A stretch of DNA of 64,000 nt, taken from the NCBI RefSeq assembly GCF_001613405.1, contig NZ_BDCH01000014.1, positions 124,001 through 188,000 of the forward strand, written 5' to 3'. A program made the position numbers and the translations under genes. This document shows positions 2,532 to 40,544 of the stretch, one piece after another. The stretch comes from Nocardia crassostreae (lineage in GTDB: Bacteria; Actinomycetota; Actinomycetes; Mycobacteriales; Mycobacteriaceae). Each line of letters opens with the position of its first letter. Position 1 is the stretch's first letter. Below the pieces are notes generated by a model. It did not search any database and was not told the DNA's origin. It saw only the letters and a program-made list of their open reading frames with translations.

Positions 2532-5500
2532 ATGCCCACCCTTGGACTCGTGACCGAGAGCAAATGGACTGTGCCGGTGATCGATTCGCGCCATCACGAC
2601 GCCGTCATCCTGGATATGGACGGTGTCGTCACCGATAGCGCGTCGGTGCATGCCGCCGCGTGGACGGAGATGTTCGATCGGTTCCTGGCGGCGCGGCCGG
2701 AGGCGGCGGGGGAGGATCACGCACCGTTCACCGCCGCGGACTATCTGCGGTCGGTGGACGGGGAGCCGCGTTATCGCGGGGTCGCCGATTTCCTTGCCAC
2801 CCGCGGTATTTCGCTGCCGTGGGGCGATCCCTGCGATGCCGAGGACGCCGGTACCGTGTGTGCGCTGGGCAACTGGAAGGACCGCCTGTTCAAGGAGCGG
2901 CTCGACCGCGACGGCGTGCCCGCCTTCGCCTCGACCGTCGCGCTGATTCGCCGGTTGCAGACGGCGGGCATCGGGGTGGCGGTGTTCTCGGCGAGCCGCA
3001 ATTGCGCCGAGGTGCTGCGGGCGGCCGGTATCGGGGACCTGTTCCCGGTGCGCGTGGACGGCATCGTCGCCGAGGAACTCGGGCTGGCGGGCAAACCCGA
3101 TCCGGACATGCTGCTCGAGGCTGCCCGGCGGCTGGGCGCGGAGCCGGGCCGCACGGTGGTGATCGAGGACGCCGAGGCCGGGGTCGCCGCCGGGCGGGCG
3201 GGCGGATTCGGGCTGGTGATCGGCGTGAACCGCGGCGATCACGCGCAGCGACTGCGTGACCGCGGCGCCGACATCGTCGTGGACGATCTCGCCGAGGTGG
3301 CCTTGCGGATCGGATTCCGGCGCATGTCGGAGGTACCGGACGCGCTGACATCGTGGGTGCGCATCAGCGATCTGCTCGATACCGAGAAGATCGCGGTACT
3401 CCTGGATTTCGACGGCACCCTGTCGGAGATCGTGCCCGCACCCGGGGCCGCCACCCTCGTGGACGGGGCCGCGGCCGCGCTCGAGCGGCTGGCGGCGCGG
3501 TGCCCGGTCGCAATAGTCAGCGGCCGTGAACTCGACGATCTGCGGGCCCGGGTCGGCGTCGACGGACTCTGGTACGCGGGCTGTCACGGGTTCGAACTGC
3601 GCGCCCCGGACGGGACCACCCATATTCACGACGCCGCCCCGGGCGCGGAACAGGCCCTCGCCGAGGCGGCCGCGGAACTGCGCGGACGGCTGTCGGACAT
3701 TGCGGGAATCCTGGCACTACCGGCAGGTCGCCGCCGACCAGGTCGCGACGGTGGTCTCGGCTGTGCACGAACTGGCCGCCAAACAGAGCCTGCGGGTGAC
3801 CCCGGGGCGCAAGGTGGTCGAACTGCGGCCGGATATCGACTGGGACAAGGGCTCCGCCCTGCGCTGGATTCTCGGGCATCTGACCGTCTCGGTGCTGCCG
3901 GTCTACCTGGGCGACGATCTCACCGACGAGGACGCCTTCGACGCCGTGGCCGCCGACGGCCAGTCCATCGTGGTGCGGCACGGCGAAAACGGCGACCGCC
4001 GCACCGCCGCCCGGTTCGCGGTGCCGGGGCCCTCCGGCGTCCGGATCCTGCTGGATCGCCTGGCCGAACAGTTGAGCACCGCGGCCGAGACCGCCGCTTC
4101 CGATTCCTGGGTGCTGAGCTTCGACGGTTACGAACCGGCGCACGAGCGGCTGCGCGAGGCCCTGTGCACGGTGGGCAACGGCTATCTGGGAGTCCGCGGC
4201 GCGGCGCCGGAATCGGTGGCGGGGGAGCGGCACTATCCGGGCACCTATGTGGCGGGCGTCGGCAACCGGCTCGACGACCGCGTCGCCGGGCGCACGATCG
4301 ACAACGAGAGCATGGTGAATCTGCCCAACTGGTTGCCGGTGACCTTCCGTATCGGCGACGGCGACTGGTTCGACCTCGACAGCATCGAATTGCTTTCCTA
4401 CCGGCAGGAATTCGATCTGCGGCGGGCGGTGCTCGAACGGCGGATCCGCTTCCGCGACGCCACCGGCCGCATCACGCGGGTGCGCCAGCGCCGCTTCGCG
4501 TCCATGCACGAACCGCACCTGTGCGCGCTGGAGACCGCGGTGACCGCCGAGAACTGGTCGGGGACAGCGATTTTCCGGTCCGCGGTCGACGGTTCGGTGA
4601 GTAACGACCTGGTGGCGCGCTACCGCGAGTTGTCGCACACGCATCTGGAGACGGTGTCCGCACGCCAGCTCTCGGCCGAATCGGTGCTGCTGGAAACCCG
4701 GACCACGCAGTCCGCGATACCGATCGCCACCGCGGCGCGCGGTACCCTGCACCGCGACGGCGTGAAGCTCCGTCCCGCAACGGAACTCATCGACGGCGAC
4801 GGACGTATCGGACACGACCACAGTGTCGCGATGGACGCCGGGGACACGGTCGTCCTGGAGAAGGTCGCGGTCATCGCCACCGGCCGCGACCATGCCGTGT
4901 CCGCGCCGGGCGATGCGGCCGCCCGCTGGCTGGACACCGCGGGACGATTCGCCGACCTGCTCGAACGCCACACCGCCGCCTGGGAACACCTGTGGGACCG
5001 GCTGCGCATCGACCTCGACGGCCATGGCGACGGCGCGGTGCGGGTCATGCGGCTGCATCTGGTGCACCTGGCGCAGACCCTGTCCCCGCACACCGCCGAT
5101 CTGGACGTGGGCGTCCCGGCGCGCGGCCTGCACGGCGAGGCGTATCGCGGGCACGTGTTCTGGGACGAGCTGTTCGTCTTCCCGCTGCTGAATCCGCGTT
5201 TCCCCGATCTGACCCGAGGGCTGCTGTGCTACCGGCACCGCCGGTTGCCCGAGGCGCGGCGCGCGGCCACGGCGGCCGGACTGAAGGGTGCGATGTTCCC
5301 GTGGCAATCCGGCAGCGACGGCCGCGAGGAGAGCCAGCTGCTGCATCTGAATCCGCTGTCGGGACACTGGAATCCGGACCCGAGCGCGCGCGCCCGCCAT
5401 ATCGGCAGCGCCGTCGCCTACAACGTGTGGCAGTACTATCAGGCCACCGGGGATATCGAATTCCTGACCGGCCGGGGCGCGGAGCTGCTGGTGGAGATCG

Positions 5501-6519
5501 CGAGGTTCTGGTCCAGCGCGGCCGACTACGATCCCGCCCACGATCGCTATCACCTGCGCGGCGTCATCGGCCCCGACGAATTCCACACCGGATCGCCCCG
5601 CGCACCCGGCGCGGGCGTCGACGACAATGCCTACACCAATGTGATGGCGGTGTGGACGCTCATGCGGGCGCTCGAGGCGCTGGACCGGCTGACCCCGCGG
5701 GCGCGGGCGGAATTGCTGGAATCACTGGCGGTTTCGCCCGCGGAGCCGGCGCGCTGGGAGCATGTGAGCAGGCGCATGTACGTACCGTTCCACGACGGGG
5801 TCATCAGCCAGTTCGAGGGCTACGACGAACTGGCCGAACTGGATTGGGACGGCTACCGCCGCCGCTACGGCGACATCCAGCGCCTGGATCGCATCCTCGA
5901 GGCGGAGGGCGACGACGTCAACCGCTACAAGGCCGCCAAGCAGGCCGATGTGCTCATGCTGTTCTACCTGCTGTCGTCCGACGAACTGCGCGAGGTACTC
6001 GACCGGCTCGGTTACGCACTGCCCGGTGAGATGATCCCGCGGACCATCGACTACTACCTGGCGCGCACCTCCCACGGCTCCACGCTGAGCGCACTGGTGC
6101 ACGCCTGGGTGCTGGCGCGGGCCAACCGCGCCCAGGCCATGGACTTCTTCGCGCGCGTGCTGGAATCCGATGTGGCCGACGTTCAGGGCGGCACCACCGA
6201 GGAGGGCATCCACCTGGGCGCCATGGCGGGCAGCATCGACCTGGTGCAGCGCTGCTTCACCGGTATGGAGATCCGCGCCGACCGGCTGATCTTTCACCCG
6301 CATTGGCCCAGCGAGCTGGGCATCCTGAGGTTTCCCATCGTCTACCGGGGGCACCGCCTCACCGTCCGCATCAGCGCGAGCGAGCTCGAGATCGGCGCCG
6401 ATCCCGGCACCGCGGACCCGGTGGAGATCCACTGCGACGGCCGCACCGAACTGCTGGCGGCCGGTACCACCGTGCGCATCCCGCTTCCGGCCGTGGGCCT
6501 TTCGTCCCCGGACCGGTGA
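2532..6519 (+). pseudogene. otsB1: OtsB1-like fusion: HAD phosphatase + trehalose-6-P phosphatase + GH65 hydrolase (frameshifted)
   Basis: This is a three-domain protein like M. tuberculosis Rv2006 (OtsB1, DosR regulon). Domain 1 (from 2532) is a beta-phosphoglucomutase-like HAD with DMDGVVTDS as nucleophile motif. Domain 2 (from about 3360) is a trehalose-phosphatase HAD with LLDFDGTLSEI and later YLGDDLTDEDAF. Domain 3 (about 4110-6519) is a GH65 trehalose/maltose phosphorylase-type (alpha/alpha)6 barrel with GNGYLGVRG, the general-acid segment GVIGPDEFH and RTSHGSTLS. The frame changes from one register to the next between about 3700 and 3722. At the junction the phosphatase goes from DIAGILAL straight to HYRQVAAD, so roughly 8-10 residues of a core strand are missing, which suggests a small out-of-frame deletion rather than a single lost base. 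Both halves are otherwise well conserved. If the deletion is real, the phosphatase and hydrolase are separated. Confidence 0.8.
6493..6509. promoter_or_regulatory. DosR-like box upstream of usp-xfp
   Basis: GTGGGCCTTTCGTCCCC reads GGGGACGAAAGGCCCAC on the other strand, close to the GGGGACC-N3-4-GGCCCC form found repeatedly here. It overlaps the last codons of the otsB1-like gene and lies about 105 bp upstream of the universal stress protein start. Confidence 0.55.
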
Positions 6520-20602: not shown

Positions 20603-22361
20603 ATGCCCCAGTTCGTCATGCCCTCCCTCGGCGCGGACATGACCGAGGGCACCCTGCTGCAATGGCTGGTCCACCCCGGAGACGCTGTGCACTCGGGCGA
20701 TGTCGTCGCCGAAGTGGACACCACCAAGGCAGCCATCGAAGTCGAATGCTTCGACGAGGGCGTCATCGCCGAAATCCTGGTGCCCGAGGGGCGCCACCGT
20801 CCCGGTCGGCACCCCACTGGCCACCATCGACACCGTCCCCGCCGCCGCGACCGCCGACAGGCGGGTCCGCCCGGCCGGTCCGGGCGAAAAGAGTTCGACC
20901 GTCTCCGCCCCGGAGACGCAGTCGGCGGCCGAACTCTCCAAGCCCGTCCCGGCCGGAAACGGCGAGACCCCCGAATTCCGTGCCACCCCCCTGATCCGGC
21001 GACTGGCCGATGAGGCCGGAATCGACCTGCACACCGTGCACGGCTCGGCCCCCGGCGGCCGAATCCTCCGCTCGGACGTCGAGCACGCCGCCGCCCAGGT
21101 CCACGGCACAGAGCCGCCTGCCCCGCCCGCCCCGGCCGCCGCGCACCCGCGCACCGCCGAGCCCGAAGCGCCCTCCGTGCCCAGCCGCCGCGCCTCCGCC
21201 GACGGCAAGCCCACCCGCAAGCCCGTCAAGGGAACCCGTCACCGACCCTCAGCCTCCCCAACCACGGCCCGCGATCACCCCCGCCGCCCCCGCAAACCCT
21301 CGTCGCCCGCGCCAGCCGCGCAGGAGCCGTCCGCAGCGATCGACACTTCCACTGCGCCAGCCGGACACGCCGATGCCACGGTGCCCCCGAACATCCTTGC
21401 GGCGCCCAGGCTCGAATCGCCTGCGCCTGCGGGCACGAAGCCCGGTGGTCGAGCCAGCGGGTATGCCCGGCGCTTGGCCGGTGAGCTCGGGGTCGATGTG
21501 ACGAGGGTCGTGGGCAGTGGTCCGGCGGGTGCCGTCCGGGCGGTGGATATTCGTGCCGCACAACGGGTTGCGGCAGAGAACAGCGATGCTACCGGCGGTT
21601 CAATTGCCGCTGGGGAGGCCGCGACCGAGCTCACCGGTGCGGTGCCGACCGGTGGTGCGGTGGCCGGTGTGGGCTCCGAGCCGGGGGCGGGTCGGGATCG
21701 GGCGGCGATGCGATCGCTCATCGCGGCCGCCATGACGCGGTCGAAAAGGACGGTGCCGCAATACTATCTGTCGGCTACCCTCGATATGGACGCCGCCACC
21801 CGCTGGCTGCGTGAGGCGAACCGTCGCGCGCCGGTGGCGGAGCGCGTTCTCGCCCCGGCGCTGCTGCTGCGTGCGACGGCTCTGGCGGCGCGGAAGGTGC
21901 CGCAGCTCAATGGTTTCTGGGTCGATGACGAATTCCGGGCCGCCGATGACGTGCACCTCGGGTTCGTGGTCTCGCTGCGGGGTGGCGGCATTATCGTTCC
22001 CACCATTCCGCACGCCGACACCCTGGACGTGCCCGCCATGATGAGGGCGCTGCGCGGTGCGGTCTCGCGCTCGCGCGATGGGCGGCTGCATGCCGCCGAT
22101 GCCACGCCCGCCACGCTGACCGTCACCAATCTCGGTGATCTGGGCGTGGATTCGGTTTACGGCGTCATCGCCGTCCCTCAGGTGGCCATTGTCGGGTTCG
22201 GCGCGATCAGTGAGCGGCCGTGCGCCGTGAACGGGCTGCTGGGAGTGCGCCCGCAGCTCACCGCCACCCTGTCCGCCGACCATCGCGCCAGCGACGGCGC
22301 GATCGGCGCGCGCTTCCTCAACACCCTGTCCGAACTCCTGCAACACCCCGAGGAGCTGTGA
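20603..22361 (+). pseudogene. pdhC: Dihydrolipoyl acyltransferase E2 (frameshift in a G run)
   Basis: Order: an N-terminal lipoyl domain (lysine in EVDTTKAAIE, about residue 40), two peripheral-subunit-binding domains (ATPLIRRLADEAGIDL and ASGYARRLAGELGVDV) separated by long Ala/Pro linkers, then the catalytic core ending with the active-site motif SADHRASDGA. At 20788-20791 the sequence has four Gs where three restore the frame: VPEG then ATVPVGTPLATID. This is a +1 shift in a homopolymer, so it may be a sequencing error. As written, translation ends at 21013, after the lipoyl domain. Two binding domains rather than one are unusual for Gram-positive E2. No E3 gene follows, so a chromosomal lipoamide dehydrogenase is presumably shared. 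Confidence 0.82.
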
Positions 22362-32325: not shown

Positions 32326-33234
32326 ATGAACCAACCAGCGATCGCGCTGGCCGGATTGACGAAACGATTCGGCGCGGTGACCGCGCTCGACGGCCTGGAC
32401 CTGACCGTGGAAACGGGGGAGGTGCACGGTTTTCTCGGCCCGAACGGCTCGGGCAAGACCACAACCATCCGCATTCTGCTCGGGCTGCTGCGCGCCGATT
32501 CCGGAACCGCCCGGATCCTGGGCGGGGACCCGTGGTCGGATGCGGTGACCCTGCATGCGCGGCTGGCCTACGTGCCCGGGGAAGTCACGCTCTGGCCGGG
32601 CCTCACCGGCGGTGAGGTCATCGACCTGATGGCCAAACTGCGCGGCGGGGCCGATCGTCGTCGCCGCGACGAACTGCTCGAGCGGTTCGACCTTGACCCG
32701 ACTCGCAAGGCGCGCGCCTACTCGAAGGGCAACCGGCAGAAGGTGGCGCTGGTGGTGGCACTGGCCTCGGATGCCGAACTGCTGCTGCTCGACGAACCCA
32801 CCGTCGGGCTGGATCCCTTGAAAGAAGCCGAATTCCGGCGTTGCGTCGGTGAACTGCGGGCGGCGGGCCGTACCGTCCTGCTGTCCAGCCATATTCTCGC
32901 CGAGGTCGAGGCGCTGTGCGACCGGGTGAGCATCATCCGCGGCGGGCGCACCGTGGAGAGCGGTTCCCTCACCGAACTTCGGCATCTCACCCGGACCGCG
33001 ATCACCGTCGAAACCGTCCGTCCCACAACCGGTCTGGAGGACACGGTGGGCGTGCACAGTGTCGTGCGGAACGGCGATCGCACCGAGTTCCAGGTGGACA
33101 CCGCGCAATTGGACGGCATCGTGCGGATACTCGGCGATCTGGGCGTGCGCGGCCTCACCAGCGCGCCGCCCACCCTGGAGGACATCTTCCTGCGCCACTA
33201 CCGGACCACCGAACTGGCCGGGGACCGGTCATGA
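32326..33234 (+). CDS. ABC transporter ATP-binding protein (tetronasin-type)
   Basis: The 302-residue ATPase has Walker [13 protein letters not shown] (about residues 38-49), the signature [15 protein letters not shown] (a variant LSGGQ with KGN), Walker [16 protein letters not shown], and a switch histidine in [15 protein letters not shown]-terminal regulatory domain follows. It pairs with the next gene, whose ATG overlaps its stop. The pair resembles M. tuberculosis Rv1218c/Rv1217c, a multidrug or tetronasin-like exporter. The ATG at 32326 follows GAGGTGGAG. The tandem DosR-like boxes upstream hint at dormancy-linked export. Confidence 0.87.
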
Positions 33235-34851
33235 CCACGGTGGTCGGCGAGCGCCGTGCGGGTCGTGAGATCACGACCGGCCTGAGCGCGCTGCTCGGAT
33301 TCGCGTTGCGCCGTGAGCGTTTCACGCTGCCGTGCTGGCTGCTCGGCGCCGCGGCCCTGCTGGCCTTCCACTCCGTGGGCAGCCAGCGCTTCTACGACAC
33401 CCCGCAGAAGCTGGCCGCCTTGCGCGAGACCATGTCGGCCAGCGCCGCCACCGTCGCCATGGGCGGGCCCACCCGCCTGCTGGACACCATCGGCGGCGAG
33501 ATCCTCTTCGAGATCTTCGCCTACCTCGCCATCGTGATCGCGTTGATGAACATGTTCCTCGTCGGGCGGCATACCCGCTCGGACGAGGAGACCGGGCGGG
33601 CCGAACTGGTCCGCTCGTCCCGGGTCGGGCGCCGGGCCCCGGCGGCCGCCGCGCTCGCCCTGGCTGTGCTGGCCGACGCAGCAGCGGTTCCGGTGCTGTT
33701 CGTGGCCGCGGTCGCGACCGGCCTGCTGGTCGCGGGATCACTGCTGCTCGGTCTCGCGGTGGCCGGTGTGGGTCTGACCTTCGCCGGGGTGACGGCCGTC
33801 GCGGCGCAGATCTTCGAGAATCCGCGCAGCGTCTACGGATCGGTCACGCTGATATTGGCCGCCGCCTACGTCCTGCGCGCCGTCGGTGATGTCGGCGCGG
33901 ACGTCTTCGCCTGGCTCTCACCCATCGGCTGGGGACAGCGCACCTATCCGTATGTGACCGATCAATGGTGGCCGTTGGCCCTGTTCGCCCTTGCCGCCCT
34001 CGGACAGACCGCGATGGCCTTCGCCCTGCTCGACCGCCGCGATTTCGGGGCGGGACTGCTGCCCTACGGGAAGGGTCGCGCGCACGCCTCCTGGGCGCTG
34101 GGTTCACCGCTGAGTCTCGCCTGGCGATTGCAGCGCGGTTCTCTAATCGGCTGGGGGGGTCGGTGTTTTCACACTCGGGCTGGCCTATGGCTCCTTCGGC
34201 GACAGTATCGAGGACTACCTGGAGGACAATCCGGAGATCGCCGCCTATCTGCCCGGCGGTGCGGCGGACGCGGTGAATTCCTATCTGTCGCTGGCGGTAT
34301 CGATGATGGGTCTGCTGGCCACGGCCTACGGCATCACCGCCGTGCTGCGGGCGCGCGGCGAGGAGGGCGCTGGGCACGCCGAATTCGTGCTGGCCGCTCC
34401 GGTGGGCCGCAACACCTGGCTCGTCGGTCAGTTGAGCGTGGCCCTGCTCGGTAGCGCGCTCGTCGTGGCCGCCGGGGGATTCGGAGTGGGCCTGGCCTAC
34501 GGGCTCACGATCTCCGACCTCGGGCAGGCCGCGCGAATGCTCGCGGTGGCGGGTGTGTACCTGCCCGCAGTCTGGGTGCTCGTCGCCGTGGCGGCCCTGG
34601 CCTACGGGTGGCTTCCCGGCAGCGCCCCCGCCGCGGCGTGGACGGTGTTCGCCTACTGCGTGATCGGCCTCATGTTCGCCGAACCCTTCGATCTACCGGA
34701 ACGATTCGACGACGCCTCGCCGTTCTCGCACACCCCGCGCGCACCGCTCGACAGCGTCGCCGCAACCCCGATCCTGTCCCTGCTGGCCGTGACCGCTCTC
34801 GCGCTGACGGCGGCGGCGATGGGATTCCGGCGGCGCGATATCAGCAACTGA
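33231..34851 (+). pseudogene. ABC transporter permease, tetronasin-type (frameshift in a G run)
   Basis: This polytopic membrane subunit of about 540 residues is the partner of the preceding ATPase. It begins [31 protein letters not shown], and has many helices including LLGLAVAGVGLTFAGVTAV and LILAAAYVLRAVGDVGADVF. At 34153-34159 there are seven Gs where six would keep GSLIGWGVGVFTLGLAYG in frame. The second half continues in the next frame (DSIEDYLEDNPEIAAYLPGG, then VLRARGEEGAGHAEFVLAAPVGR) to 34851. As written, translation ends at 34454 in a nonsense tail. A +1 slip in a seven-G run is a classic sequencing error or phase-variable tract. Confidence 0.8.
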
Positions 34852-34881: not shown

Positions 34882-35835
34882 ATGACACAGCAGGAGTTCG
34901 GCGATCCCCATCGACTGGCCGGTGCGGCCGTGGTCGTCGGCGTGGACGGGTCCGCCGAATCGGATACGACCGTGCGGTGGGCGGCGAAATTGGCGGCCCA
35001 GCGCGGCCGGGAACTGCACATCGTGCACGGGCTCGATCTCACGGGCATGGGCAAGGTGCCGCGGATCTACCAGGCCGTCGTACCGCAGGTGGTCGAATCC
35101 GTGCGGGCGGACGGCACAGCGCTGCTACGGCACGCCGAACAGGTGGCGCGCGCCCTCGAACCCCGGCCGCGCGTGACGGTACACCTGTCCGAGGACGGCG
35201 GCACCGCGCTGCTGCTCGAGCGCAGCGCCACCGCCTATGCCGTGGTGATGGGCGCGACCGGCACCGCGGGCACCGTCGCGCACCTGGGTTCGACCTTGCT
35301 CACGGTGACCTCGCACGCGCGCGGACCGGTCGTCGTGGTGCGCCCGGATCCGGAGGCGGGCAATACCGTTCACGAATCAGGCCCGGTCGTGGTCGGCGTG
35401 GACGGCAGCCCCATCAGCGAAGCCGCCCTCGCCGCCGCCTTCGCCGAGGCCGCGGAACGCCGCACCACCCTGATCGCCGTACATGTCTGGAGCGATTGGA
35501 GTTTCGGGCGATACGCCGGGGCGGACGCACCGCTGTCGATCGAAGAACTCGACGATATCGAGGACGCCATCCTGGCCGAACGCCTGGCCGGGTGGCAGGA
35601 GAAGTATCCGGACGTCGATGTGGTGCGCCGCCTGTACTTCAGTGACCCGGTGAAGCATCTGACGGAATGGTCGCGGCACGCGCATCTGACGGAATGGTCG
35701 CGGCACGCGCAACTGCTGGTCGTCGGCACTCGTGGCCGCGGCGGGCTGGTGGGCATGCTGCTGCTGGGCTCGACCTCCCACTCGCTGGTCCAGCACGCGC
35801 ACTGCCCGGTGCTGGTCGTCCACCCCGCACGCTGA
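34882..35835 (+). CDS. Universal stress protein with 9-residue internal duplication
   Basis: The 317-residue tandem USP is close to the protein at 6613-7551. Domain 1 starts VVVGVDGSAESDTTVRWA; domain 2 starts VVVGVDGSPISEAALAAAFAEAAERRTTL and ends with GTRGRGGLVGMLLLGSTSHSLVQHAHCP, the ATP signature. Within domain 2 the sequence HLTEWSRHA occurs twice in a row (about residues 259-276), from a 27-bp tandem repeat, which lengthens the loop between a beta strand and the ATP loop. There is no frame defect. It follows the ABC permease by 30 bp. Confidence 0.9.
   Translation: MTQQEFGDPHRLAGAAVVVGVDGSAESDTTVRWAAKLAAQRGRELHIVHGLDLTGMGKVPRIYQAVVPQVVESVRADGTALLRHAEQVARALEPRPRVTVHLSEDGGTALLLERSATAYAVVMGATGTAGTVAHLGSTLLTVTSHARGPVVVVRPDPEAGNTVHESGPVVVGVDGSPISEAALAAAFAEAAERRTTLIAVHVWSDWSFGRYAGADAPLSIEELDDIEDAILAERLAGWQEKYPDVDVVRRLYFSDPVKHLTEWSRHAHLTEWSRHAQLLVVGTRGRGGLVGMLLLGSTSHSLVQHAHCPVLVVHPAR
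35656..35709 (+). repeat. 27-bp tandem duplication inside usp
   Basis: The unit beginning CATCTGACGGAATGGTCG is present twice without a gap (35656-35682 and 35683-35709) and the copies look identical. It adds nine residues (HLTEWSRHA) in frame. Because the copies do not differ, the duplication is likely recent or an assembly artefact. Confidence 0.85.
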
Positions 35836-36582: not shown

Positions 36583-37356
36583 TTGCAGGTGTTGCGTGTG
36601 TGTGAAGCGTGGTCGCCGGAGGCGTTTCCAGGCATCGCGGTGTTCGCGAAGGGCCGGGTTCCGATTCTCGAGGGTGAGCGAGTGGCGGGTGCGGTCGGCC
36701 GGTTGCTGATGCGGTATCGCGCCGATCTGTCGGCCCGGGTGCGGATGACCGGATCCGGATGTGACAACGGACCGATTCTGGTCCAAGTCAATACCCAACC
36801 CGGGGGCGCGTCGATCCGGATACAAACCCTCACCCACGGTCGCGGCGACGCCCTACCGGTGCTGGTGCGGCTCGAGCGCCAGCTGCGCACCCTGCGCAAG
36901 GCATGGTCGCCGCGACCGTGGCCGGACCCGGATCGTCCGACGCTGGACGCCCCCGGCCCGGGAACCCTGGTGCGCCGCAAAACCATTGCGCTGCAGACCG
37001 CCGACCCGCTGCATGCGGCCGCGATGATGGACGCGATGGACTACGACGTGCATCTGTTCACCGACGCCGAAACCGGTGAGGACGCGATCGTCTACCGCGC
37101 CCAGCCCTCCGGCCTGCGCCTGGCCCGCCAGCACTGCGTCCATCCGCCGTGCACCGCGGCGGTCGCGGCGGCAACCCCCGTCCCGTTGATCACTACCCCG
37201 CGGCCCGCACCGGTGCTGAGCGAGCGCGAGGCGGCCGAGCGCGTCTGCGCACCCGGCCTGCCGTTTCTGTTCTACACCGACTTCGGCACCGGGCGTGGAC
37301 ATCTCATGTACCGCCGCTACGACACCGGCCTCGGTCTGATCACCCCTGCCGCATGA
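36583..37356 (+). CDS. HPF-like protein, second copy
   Basis: The protein of about 257 residues is related to the hpf-like protein at 26098. It has an N-terminal domain of unclear similarity, then two HPF C-terminal-type domains: TLVRRKTIALQTADPLHAAAMMDAMDYDVHLFTDAETGEDAIVYR, and the end LPFLFYTDFGTGRGHLMYRRYDTGLGLITP. The paralogue shares the MDYDxHLFT core and the C-terminal GLITPA. It may compete with or complement the first copy in ribosome silencing. The start is TTG 36583 or GTG 36589, after GGGAG. Its promoter region has a DosR-like site. Confidence 0.7.
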   Translation: MQVLRVCEAWSPEAFPGIAVFAKGRVPILEGERVAGAVGRLLMRYRADLSARVRMTGSGCDNGPILVQVNTQPGGASIRIQTLTHGRGDALPVLVRLERQLRTLRKAWSPRPWPDPDRPTLDAPGPGTLVRRKTIALQTADPLHAAAMMDAMDYDVHLFTDAETGEDAIVYRAQPSGLRLARQHCVHPPCTAAVAAATPVPLITTPRPAPVLSEREAAERVCAPGLPFLFYTDFGTGRGHLMYRRYDTGLGLITPAA

Positions 37357-37384
37357 CCGATAGCGGCCCCACACCCGGGTGGGC

Positions 37385-37399
37385 GGGACCAAGGTCACC
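37385..37399. promoter_or_regulatory. DosR-like box upstream of ctaD-like gene
   Basis: GGGACCAAGGTCACC lies 157-171 bp before the GTG at 37556. The gap 37357-37555 otherwise shows no gene in a supported frame. Confidence 0.5.
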
Positions 37400-37555
37400 A
37401 GCGCATGGGTCGCAGGCCATCGAAAGTCACCGATCGGTTCGTCAGGGGTATTGCAGGCGGCTGGTACGCCAGTACCGCTCGGGCGCTGGTGCGCGAATTG
37501 CGCTGGCGCTCAGTGCATGCGAGATCTCGCACGGTTCAGGACGAGGACGATACTG

Positions 37556-39296
37556 GTGACCGCGATTTCACCGAAACCGGCCGTGGGGCTATCGGCCGAG
37601 CGGCCGTACCCGGCGCGGCAGGCGCCGAAGGGTTCGTTCATCCACCGGATGGTCACCACGACCGACCCGAAGGTGCTCGGGCAGATGTATCTGGTGACCT
37701 CGATGTCGTTCTTCATGATCGCCGGATTGATGGCGCTGCTCATGCGCGGGGAGCTGGCGCGGCCGGGCATGCAGTTCCTCTCGCCCGAGCAGTTCAACCA
37801 GCTGTTCACCATGCACGGAACCATTATGCTGCTGTTCTACGCGACCGCGATCATCTTCGGCTTCGCGAACATCCTGCTGCCCTTGCAGATCGGCGCACCC
37901 GATGTCGCCTTCCCGCGGTTGAACGCCCTGAGCTATTGGCTGTACCTGTTTGGCGCGACGCTGGCCACGGCGGGTTTCATCACCCCGGGCGGCGCGGCCG
38001 ATTTCGGATGGACCGCCTATGTACCGTTGAGCGACATCATCCATTCCCCGGGCGTGGGCGCGGACATGTGGATTCTGGGGGGTGGGCGTCTCGGGGCTGG
38101 GCACCATCCTGGGTGCGGTCAATATGCTGACCACCGTCGTATGCCTGCGCTGCCCGGGCATGACCATGTTCCGGCTGCCCATCTTCACCTGGAATGTCGT
38201 CGTCGCTAGTTTCCTCGTGCTGCTGGTGTTTCCGCTGCTGACCGCGGCGGCGCTGGCGCTCTACTACGACCGGCACCTGGGTGGGCACATCTACGATCCG
38301 GCCAGCGGCGGGACAATGCTGTTTCAGCACCTCTTCTGGTTCTTCGGGCATCCGGAGGTCTATGTGATCGCGTTGCCGTTCTTCGGCATCGTCTCCGAGA
38401 TCTTCCCGGTCTTCAGCCGCAAACCGCTGTTCGGTTACACCGGCATGGTGTACGCGACGCTGGGCATCGCGGCGCTGTCGATCGCCGTGTGGGCGCACCA
38501 CATGTACGCCACGGGAGCCGTGCTACTGCCGTTCTTCTCGTTCATGACCTTCCTGATCGAGGTGCCGACCGGGGTGAAGTTCTTCAACTGGATCGGCACC
38601 CTGTGGCGGGGACAGCTGACCTTCGAGACGCCGATGCTGTGGTCTCTCGGCTTCCTGGTGACCTTCCTCTTCGGCGGCCTCTCCGGTGTCGTGCTGGCCA
38701 GCCCGCCCCTGGACTTCCATTTGTCCGACACCTATTTCGTGGTGGCGCACTTCCACTACACCTTGTTCGGCACCGTCGTGTTCTCGACCTTCGCGGGCAT
38801 CTACTTCTGGTTCCCCAAGATGACCGGCCGCATGATGGACGAGCGGTTGGGCAAGTGGCATTTCTGGACCACGTTCTTCGGCTTCCACCTGACGTTCCTG
38901 GCCCAGCATTGGCTGGGCAACGAGGGGATGCCGCGCCGCTACGCCGACTACCTGCCGTCGGACGGCTTCACCGGGCTCAACGAGGTTTCCACCATCGGGT
39001 CGTTCGTGCTGGGCGCGTCGATGATCCCGTTCCTGTGGAACGTCTTCAAGTCCTACCGCTACGGCGAGGTCGTGACCGTCGACGACCCATGGGGTTACGG
39101 CAACTCCCTGGAATGGGCGACCTCCTGTCCGCCGCCGCGGCACAACTTCTACGAGCTGCCGCGCATCCGCTCGGAGCGACCCGCGTTCGAGCTGCACTAC
39201 CCGCACATGGTCGACCGCATGCGCGCCGAGGCGCACGTGGGCTGGGGCACGGCGGCGCACCGTGTCCACGAGACGTCGGGCACGGAGGCGAAATGA
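37556..39296 (+). pseudogene. ctaD: Cytochrome c oxidase subunit I (frameshift in a G run)
   Basis: This heme-copper oxidase catalytic subunit has about 580 residues. The low-spin heme and CuB ligands are visible in order: [10 protein letters not shown] (His in helix II), [12 protein letters not shown] (cross-linked His-Tyr), WAHHMYATG (paired His) and [11 protein letters not shown] (heme a and a3 His). The GTG at 37556 follows GAGGA by 8 nt. At 38077-38082 six Gs replace five: the frame up to DMWILG must shift to give [18 protein letters not shown]. As written, the product ends at 38209, after helix V. No subunit II, III or assembly gene is nearby; a second, housekeeping ctaD is presumably elsewhere. 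The DosR-like box upstream suggests induction at low oxygen. Confidence 0.82.
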
Positions 39297-39445
39297 GTCG
39301 GGCACAGCAGAACTCGACCTTCCGCATACCCCGGGTCCCCGTCGGCGTGCGGGCTCTGCTCGTCGCGGTGGCGCTGATCGGCTGGGTCGTGTTCCTCGGC
39401 TGGGCAGCCGGTGTAGCGGAATCGGGACCTCCGGTCTGGTGCTGA
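39293..39445 (+). CDS. 50-aa single-pass membrane protein after ctaD
   Basis: The ATG at 39293 overlaps the ctaD stop (ATGA). The product is 50 residues with a polar N-terminus, one helix [20 protein letters not shown] (about residues 22-41) and a short tail ending in WC. The position suggests a small accessory subunit of the oxidase, like the tiny subunits of other terminal oxidases, but no homology is known to me. Confidence 0.6.
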
Positions 39446-39521: not shown

Positions 39522-40544
39522 ATGATTACAGCCGCAACCGGGGCGGTGTCGGGCGATCCGGCGCCGTTCACCTGGCTCACCGCCATATCGATGATTGTGT
39601 TCTGCGCGATTCTGTGGGCGATCGTGCGGTATATGCAACTGCACCCCCGCGCGTCGATGTGGGTGTGGGGATTGTCGATTCTGACTTTCCCGCTGTGGAT
39701 TTGGGGCCCGGGGCGCGATATCGGGCTGATCAACTGGTTCTCTTGGGCCAAGATCCTGTCGGTGCTCATCCCGCTGACCGTCGTCGGCGCCATGCGGGTA
39801 TCGATGGCCGAACAGCGGCCGGGCCGGGTGCGGGAGTTGCTGCGCGATCCCCGGTTCCTGTGGTTTCCCTACGGCATCCTGTTCCTGAACATCACCGAGG
39901 CCACCGTCCGTGACGTCCAGATCGGCAATTACTGGAACGCGGCGGTCGGCCTCGGCCTGTGCCTGACCATCCCGTACACGCCGCGGTTCTGGTAGATCAC
40001 CGCCAACCGCAACGCGGAACTGATCGCCTACACCACGGTGGCCTGGAATTTCGTCTACACCTCGTGGAACCTGTGCTTCACCTACGGAGGCTACCCGCCG
40101 CAGGAGGAGCATTTCGCGGGCAGCATCTGCATTCTGGCGGTGGCCGAGATCTATCCCCTGGTGATGCGGCGGCCCGAGCTGTACATCATGGCCCGAATCT
40201 ACACCCTGCCTGTCCTCATGCTGGTGATCGGCATCTACAACATCTTCCCGACCGTCATGCCCTCCGACGGCTGGTTCAACGAACGCGTCTGGATGATCTG
40301 GGGCGCAGTCAATGTCGTACTCATGCTGCCCATGCTGTTCCGGCACACCTGGCAGCTGCAGAGCGGCGCGGCATTCCTCACCTTCCGGCGTGGCCACGCT
40401 CGTGAGGAATTCGCCGCGCGGCACGGCGCGACCGTCGAACAGATCATGACGCTCGGCCGCTCACTCGACGCCGGAACCGGTGCGCCGGGTCCGAAGGTCC
40501 CGGGTACCAACGGATCAGGTCGTCTCGTGAGTGAACTCCAGTAG
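39522..40544 (+). pseudogene. Polytopic membrane protein of unknown function with in-frame stop
   Basis: The protein of about 340 codons has eight or so hydrophobic segments, including FTWLTAISMIVFCAILWAIV, SMWVWGLSILTFPLWIWGPG and LYIMARIYTLPVLMLVIGIY. The conserved-looking loop LLRDPRFLWFPYGILFLNITEATVRDVQIGNY precedes an in-frame TAG at 39993-39995, where CAG would fit. The frame continues unbroken after it: ITANRNAELIAYTTVAWNFVYTSWNLCF, and a basic C-terminal tail to 40544. I do not recognise the family with certainty. ATG 39522 is preferred to the upstream 39480 because hydrophobic sequence and a GAGGGG site begin there. Confidence 0.6.

Follow-up and report, generated by a model that had tools for sequence, protein, structure and literature searches.

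The window analysed here is a 64,000-nucleotide stretch of the Nocardia crassostreae genome (C14:124001-188000; genome G000 of our collection, 8.29 Mb in 57 contigs). At window positions 37556-39445, on the + strand like the neighbouring features described below between 33231 and 40544, it carries a ctaD sequence, encoding subunit I of the aa3 cytochrome oxidase, followed by a gene for a 50-residue membrane peptide. Comparison with other Nocardia genomes indicates, with a probability that we put at about 0.55, that this locus is the strain's copy of an accessory subunit I isoform module, probably under DosR-type control and here paired with the peptide. As assembled, this copy is frame-broken. 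An earlier note on the same DNA had proposed a low-oxygen form of subunit I that swaps into the housekeeping oxidase.

The window ctaD belongs to an accessory clade

The comparison set consisted of 98 Nocardia genomes sampled evenly from a larger group, that of the window among them. In a CtaD tree of 41 rows, 33 of them different, the window ctaD fell inside an accessory clade of 12 rows from 11 genomes (support 100/99, stem 0.11), within which the peptide carriers and one further genome, G092, formed a sub-clade of seven rows (support 97/92). The copy linked to serB (serB recognized by TIGR00338) and two further G000 copies lay outside this clade. Fixed differences between the accessory rows (12/12) and all others (29/29) included a V-to-T change immediately following HFHY and an I-to-V change immediately following HPEVY, both of them beside heme a3/CuB motifs, and a cluster at positions 39-61 of the second ctaD piece described below. 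On sequence grounds, an accessory subunit I module is present in at least 11 of the 98 Nocardia genomes.

The ctaD reading frame is interrupted in the assembly

COX1/CtaD-type sequence was found by translation and Pfam search at 37556-39296, which the earlier note had treated as one open reading frame (ORF), and it is in fact divided between two frames. Piece 1 (37556-38209) starts with GTG at 37556, is in frame until about 38077 and then continues out of frame until the TAG at 38207-38209 stops it. The second piece, in a different frame, is open from 38082 through the TGA that ends at 39296. The frame changes in a run of G residues (38077-38082), a point at which all 17 of the 17 further ctaD loci used for comparison, among which are the other three G000 copies and five peptide-linked orthologues, remain in a single frame that reads WI(L/M)G. 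The Pfam COX1 profile (PF00115) matched piece 1 over positions 2-122 (127.7 bits) and piece 2 over positions 127-436 (387.9 bits; cut-off 34.8); NF050116 gave 232.9 and 734.7 bits, neither piece alone reaching the cut-off of 880. A whole-genome COX1 search returned three full ctaD genes (frames of 608, 615 and 589 aa) and the two halves of this locus, at profile positions 2-124 and 122-436. In a search of solved structures, 388 residues of piece 2 were aligned with PDB 9wcx_I (E 1.9e-231).

All the heme and CuB ligand motifs are present, as the earlier note had claimed: piece 1 contains FTMHG (37805), and piece 2 contains HPEVY, HHM, the VPTG-K region and HFHY. In the window copy this set is complete only as the sum of two ORFs in different frames and does not lie on one polypeptide, whereas one ORF holds the whole set in L014, an intact orthologue, and in each of the other three G000 copies. 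Piece 2 also differs from all 40 other rows at two columns where these do not vary, by an A-to-E change (in IEVPTG) and an A-to-S change. Private changes of this kind are absent from the serB-linked copy and number 14 in the C10 copy of G000. Because the ctaD frame is broken and the gene that follows the module contains a stop codon, the oxidase part as assembled is a pseudogene or a mis-sequenced gene. A break shared with G092 was considered and rejected, the two short ctaD frames of that genome being contig ends.

A one-helix peptide is conserved next to the accessory ctaD in six genomes

The peptide gene (39293-39445, 50 aa) starts inside the ctaD stop codon, as ATGA, and is preceded by a GGAGG ribosome-binding-like site within the 3' end of ctaD (39284-39288), which is also present in four of five relatives and missing from the G071 copy. 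As the earlier note had seen, it encodes a single strongly hydrophobic segment, of 19 aa at residues 17-35 (mean Kyte-Doolittle hydropathy 2.47), which suggests a single helix. Three K/R residues precede this segment and none follows it. For the five versions measured, the same count around the hydrophobic stretch (about residues 17-36) gave 3/0, 3/1, 2/2, 3/0 and 2/3, and because this balance varies, an N-in, C-out topology is only likely.

The earlier note had suggested looking for the ctaD-peptide pair in related genomes. Peptide matches were found in six of the 98 genomes, that of the window included, with one match in each (E 4.3e-29 to 5.0e-4). In all five others the peptide directly follows the ctaD orthologue (92-93% identity in the C-terminal piece), with the same ATGA overlap. 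The lack of conservation beside ctaD that the earlier note named as refuting its idea was thus not observed. In the alignment of the six peptides M, TF, P, P, G, L, I and L are invariant and STFRIPR is exact in four; the C-terminal tail is unconstrained and the total length ranges from 42 to 70 aa. Over the first 37 codons the non-synonymous rate (dN) was below the synonymous rate (dS) in 15 of 15 pairs, which are not independent (range 0.06/0.23 to 0.52/0.60); for the G019-G027 and G019-G001 pairs dN/dS was near 1. Changes at the three codon positions numbered 193, 147 and 291, the third position being the most frequent. At the level of sequence the peptide has what would be expected of a supernumerary subunit, one helix and a conserved gene adjoining an oxidase gene. 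A profile search across the family found the peptide in 4 of 301 genomes, the three besides G000 being near threshold and one of these containing a stop; this search was insensitive, because 20 candidates were scored per listed genome. A scan of the collection found the peptide in at least one relative, Nocardia seriolae NBRC 15557.

Tandem boxes mark the accessory ctaD upstream regions

Tandem DosR-like boxes lie upstream of ctaD (37386-37432). Two of them, at 37386-37400 and 37408-37422, are spaced by 22 nt, and a third match (37418-37432) overlaps the second. Their pattern, GG-A/T-C-C/G-AAGGTCAYCG, can be read as GGGAC-N4-GTC-like half-sites. With a matrix trained without the group under test, a pair spaced by 21-22 nt was found in 10 of 10 accessory upstream regions versus 0 of 7 of other ctaD genes. 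Each accessory pair score was reached in 0 of 200 shuffles, and the lowest p among the other ctaD genes was 0.055; the single best box of G025 was weaker (p 0.05). The regions tested represent 10 of the 12 accessory rows (two G065 rows were left out) and 7 of the 29 others, and L051 begins at a contig edge. Some circularity is left in this test, as the choice of training sites was seeded with the window and its orthologues.

Classical consensus scans were rejected as proof of DosR control, their counts being at chance (for example, eight GGGAC-N4-GTCCC sites with at most one mismatch in the window versus 6.9 expected), and the comparative box test was used instead. The DosR-like box claimed in the earlier note is thus at chance level by the consensus and becomes significant through the comparison across relatives. 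A DosR-type regulator of 213 aa is encoded at C14:120343-120981, its end lying 3,020 nt ahead of window base 1; it matches DevR (PDB 3c3w, E 7.5e-106) and Mycobacterium tuberculosis DosR (E 2.1e-106). Together, there is good comparative evidence, from upstream sequences, for putative DosR-type control of the accessory ctaD-peptide module. In the literature searches made, no DosR-linked ctaD in Nocardia came up.

A second type of accessory ctaD, without peptide and with the same tandem boxes, was observed at L048-L050 (G047, G008 and G058), close to a gene for a NarK-like transporter.

Gene counts suggest a shared oxidase core

COX2 and COX3 genes were counted as PF00116 and PF00510 matches at E <= 0.001. 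G000 has four ctaD genes and one match to each of these families, both on C39, which agrees with the earlier note that no subunit II or III gene is near the locus. One COX2 and one COX3 match were found in G001, and one COX2, two COX3 and four ctaD matches in each of G019 and G027. With four genes for subunit I against a single match each for subunits II and III, an extra CtaD in G000 could work only by sharing these subunits, and in the other genomes, too, an accessory CtaD would have to share the one subunit II. A lone ctaD was rejected as a sign of anything special: the serB-linked ctaD, on C29, is likewise on another contig than COX2 and COX3, so that the absence of ctaC and ctaE nearby, used as a clue in the earlier note, loses its value. 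Extra ctaD genes also occur on plasmids of Rhodococcus, Gordonia and Tsukamurella (76 records matched; 19 of the 20 listed were annotated ctaD).

The following mechanism can be proposed. A regulator of the DosR/DevR kind would bind the tandem boxes and turn ctaD on under low oxygen, nitric oxide (NO) or carbon monoxide (CO). Judging from the gene counts, the extra CtaD would then take the place of the housekeeping CtaD in the single aa3 oxidase, with the sole CtaC and CtaE. In six genomes the peptide appears placed for translational coupling to the same ctaD; it would probably be located next to its CtaD, either as an additional small subunit or as an aid to assembly, and contact could be made through its conserved, presumably cytoplasmic, N-terminus (STFRIPR in four of six). 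Some Nocardia may in this way possess a second form of aa3 under a DosR-type signal, in which the catalytic subunit is exchanged and a one-helix micro-subunit added while CtaC, CtaE and the bcc partner are kept, a gas-tuned oxidase with changed active-site neighbours (V to T after HFHY). This fuller reading we consider less likely than not, and we hold it with less confidence than the module and mechanism themselves. The swap-in subunit I of the earlier note is thus retained for the lineage, where the conserved peptide, the clade, the boxes, the DosR homologue and the gene counts support it, and not for the copy as assembled, which is frame-broken.

Neighbouring genes

The gene that follows the module (39522-40544) encodes a membrane-like protein with a weak DUF5692 match (24.9 bits, cut-off 27) and an in-frame TAG at 39993-39995; a related gene occurs in 12 other genomes and is open over at least 334 aa in 11 of them. 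In the four of these that are also peptide carriers (G001, G025, G027 and G071) the DUF5692-like gene is at a great distance from the accessory ctaD or on a different contig. In G001 (C39) and G027 (C62), some 31-33 kb separate DUF5692-like homologues from a DosR homologue of the same contig, and the gene may be part of dormancy islands in general.

Just upstream of ctaD, Pfam identified a hibernation-factor-like (Hpf-like) protein with an S30AE C-terminal domain (36583-37356), and farther upstream a universal stress protein (Usp) whose gene (34882-35835) contains a 27-bp in-frame tandem duplication (35655-35715). The gene at 33231-34851, frame-broken near 34158, encodes the probable membrane partner of the preceding ABC ATPase, to judge from its place and hydrophobicity. 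The gene content of the window includes two Usp genes, PfkB, the ABC ATPase, two Hpf-like genes, a P-type ATPase, an ABC1 kinase, a flavodoxin, a CBS-BON protein and an OtsB/GH65 pair, much of which is of the M. tuberculosis DosR regulon type.

Observations that weigh against the module and its proposed role

Several observations weigh against a DosR-controlled oxidase module. The dormancy-type neighbourhood is not kept around the ctaD orthologues, save for an Hpf-like gene in the fetched stretch of two of five relatives and a fragment in a third; instead, the neighbours include a nitroreductase-family gene in G025 and G092, a flavodoxin-family gene in G071, a receiver-domain protein in G092 and, at the G047-type ctaD, the NarK-like transporter. 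No peptide follows ctaD in G092, the sixth close orthologue, or at four G047-type loci. Searched against solved structures, the peptide and its profile gave best E-values of 1.5 and 0.42, to unrelated chains, and matched no oxidase subunit. The DosR consensus of M. tuberculosis is only loosely matched, with four sites of at least 14/20 in the window versus 3.9 expected, and the match at 37382 is not above chance for the window. Finally, G000 has five DosR-like matches (E <= 1e-40), so that there are several candidates for the acting regulator.

Sequencing error or decay

The ctaD frame change could be a sequencing or assembly error, the living strain having an intact ctaD-peptide pair, or the mark of a true pseudogene, in which case this strain is losing its low-oxygen island and the peptide is a leftover. 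We give these two explanations about equal odds, each of them a little short of an even chance.

Within the window, frame changes were also found at 3713 (OtsB/GH65), 20789 (dehydrogenase E2) and 34158 (ABC partner gene), and three of the four judged clear in the window sit at G runs, as expected of error. The break near 3713 places the HAD, trehalose-phosphatase and GH65 parts of an OtsB1-like protein (2532-6519) in two frames and divides the trehalose-phosphatase domain itself. Near 20789, the N-terminal part of a dihydrolipoamide acyltransferase E2 (20603-22361), lipoyl-like by eye, is in the other frame. That ctaD, the gene following the module, the ABC partner, OtsB/GH65 and the dehydrogenase E2 are all interrupted within 64 kb, which also holds the Usp duplication, argues for decay. 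The two ctaD pieces still align at 87-94% with the orthologues of the five other peptide carriers, and no ligand motif has been lost, which argues for error.

Disruptions were found across the whole assembly, in favour of error and against a decaying island. In-frame stops were present in 9 of 129 AMP-binding matches of G000 (7 TAG and 2 TGA; 129 of 167 candidates were scored), for example at C17:309878-310894 and C20:73549-74571, several of them inside otherwise long non-ribosomal peptide synthetase frames. Either nonsense mutations are numerous in this genome or the assembly suffers from substitution errors. Eight of the nine stops, those inspected, are substitutions; together with the 27-bp duplication of the Usp gene, they go beyond errors of run length. 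G071 has an AMP-binding stop in 1 of 129 rows versus 9 of 129 in G000 (Fisher p 0.019); its lesions are mostly split matches, with six AMP-binding domains split in two (partial matches are also seen in G000), and this different mix likewise speaks against error.

A coding-potential scan gave nine candidates in the 64-kb window (five frame changes, four stops), 29 in 400 kb elsewhere in G000 (14 frame changes, 15 stops), about half the density of the window, and 22 in 400 kb of G071 (19 frame changes, three stops). The twofold excess in the window is in the direction expected of decay and is weak, the scan being crude and counting natural gene borders among its candidates, and the sample not being random (9 of the 20 G000 stretches came from the contig of the window). 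Private non-synonymous and synonymous changes numbered 5:9 in the window ctaD versus 14:72 in six orthologues pooled, again in the direction of decay and not significant (Fisher p = 0.13). The private A to E change in ctaD also counts against error.

When 16 ORFs of G001 were matched to 60 kb of G000, two showed a stop and rpoC was intact. The intact rpoC frame of G000, and the serB-linked ctaD without a private change at invariant columns, count against error. In rpoC, G000 has 10 private changes, mostly conservative, versus 4-6 in three other genomes. In the one-contig relative G071 (C1:2057561, L130) the rpoC frame is 1006 aa long versus 1331-1332 aa in three others, a probable sequencing error in a complete genome, suggesting that such errors do occur in the collection. 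In conclusion, lesions of mixed kinds are spread across the whole genome, perhaps at higher density in the window, and decay and assembly error are therefore not separable.

Other roles for the accessory CtaD and the peptide

The accessory CtaD might serve tolerance to NO, CO or sulfide, and not respiration at low oxygen as such, which we consider rather unlikely. The fixed changes lie beside active-site motifs, and M. tuberculosis DosRST responds to hypoxia, CO and NO (PMC7719681). The position of the changes is nevertheless silent on which ligand would be affected.

We find it similarly doubtful that the peptide is a free regulatory or stress peptide which shares a transcript with ctaD and has no part in the oxidase. 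Because 5 of the 11 accessory-clade genomes have no peptide after ctaD, the accessory CtaD does not always depend on it, and both the variation of its tail in length and sequence and the lack of a match to a known oxidase subunit would fit such a role; against it, the peptide is coupled through ATGA to the same ctaD sub-clade in six of six cases, and there is only one match per genome, in 6 of 98 genomes. Finally, a programmed ribosomal frameshift joining the two ctaD pieces, suggested by the frame change within a G run, is highly improbable, as 17 of 17 other ctaD loci need none at that point and comparable interruptions are seen in genes of this assembly that have no relation to ctaD.

Relation to known systems

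Subunit I isoforms and small oxidase subunits are already known kinds, and the accessory ctaD-peptide module is not a new kind of system. The subunit IV of Paracoccus denitrificans is small. For the aa3 oxidase of this species, two subunit I isoforms, CtaDI and CtaDII, and a separate subunit IV gene are described (PMC6955949). As in Nocardia, the isoforms are encoded by single genes apart from the subunit II/III operon, and a further subunit has its own gene. Activity of the ctaDII promoter peaks at high aeration, whereas here the extra copy has DosR-like boxes; moreover, the Nocardia peptide gene overlaps the ctaD stop codon, and the peptide does not match oxidase chains in solved structures.

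The CtaD of the actinobacterial bcc-aa3 supercomplex (PDB 9wcx, 7rh5, 6adq, 8hcr) most likely belongs to the same NF050116 family as the window copy, which differs from it by its place in a separate accessory clade, its fixed changes near active-site motifs and its broken frame. The nearest parallel for the peptide is offered by the Corynebacterium glutamicum supercomplex, whose supernumerary subunits P6, P8 and P12 (PMC8795186) are lineage-specific proteins of an actinobacterial bcc-aa3. Unlike these, the Nocardia peptide goes with an accessory CtaD and is a predicted protein.

The locus resembles the M. tuberculosis DosR/DevR regulon by the nearby DosR homologue and the tandem GGGAC-N4-GTC-like boxes, and the window does so by its Usp, PfkB, HPF, OtsB1-like and P-type ATPase genes, kinds that belong to the regulon in M. 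tuberculosis. The Nocardia boxes depart from the 20-nt palindrome of M. tuberculosis, and the DosR regulon of that species is not known to hold a ctaD. In yeast, Cox5A and Cox5B are under oxygen control. They are isoforms of one oxidase subunit exchanged according to conditions (PMC8361435); the exchanged subunit is accessory there and would be catalytic here.

If the proposal is correct, a group related to mycobacteria would tune its main oxygen-reducing enzyme by swapping the catalytic subunit within a dormancy response, instead of, or besides, changing to another oxidase such as cytochrome bd. A caution of equal weight is that the window's own ctaD copy is broken as assembled. Under the proposal, the affinity of the bcc-aa3 supercomplex for oxygen and NO would be a regulated property, testable with one gene pair.
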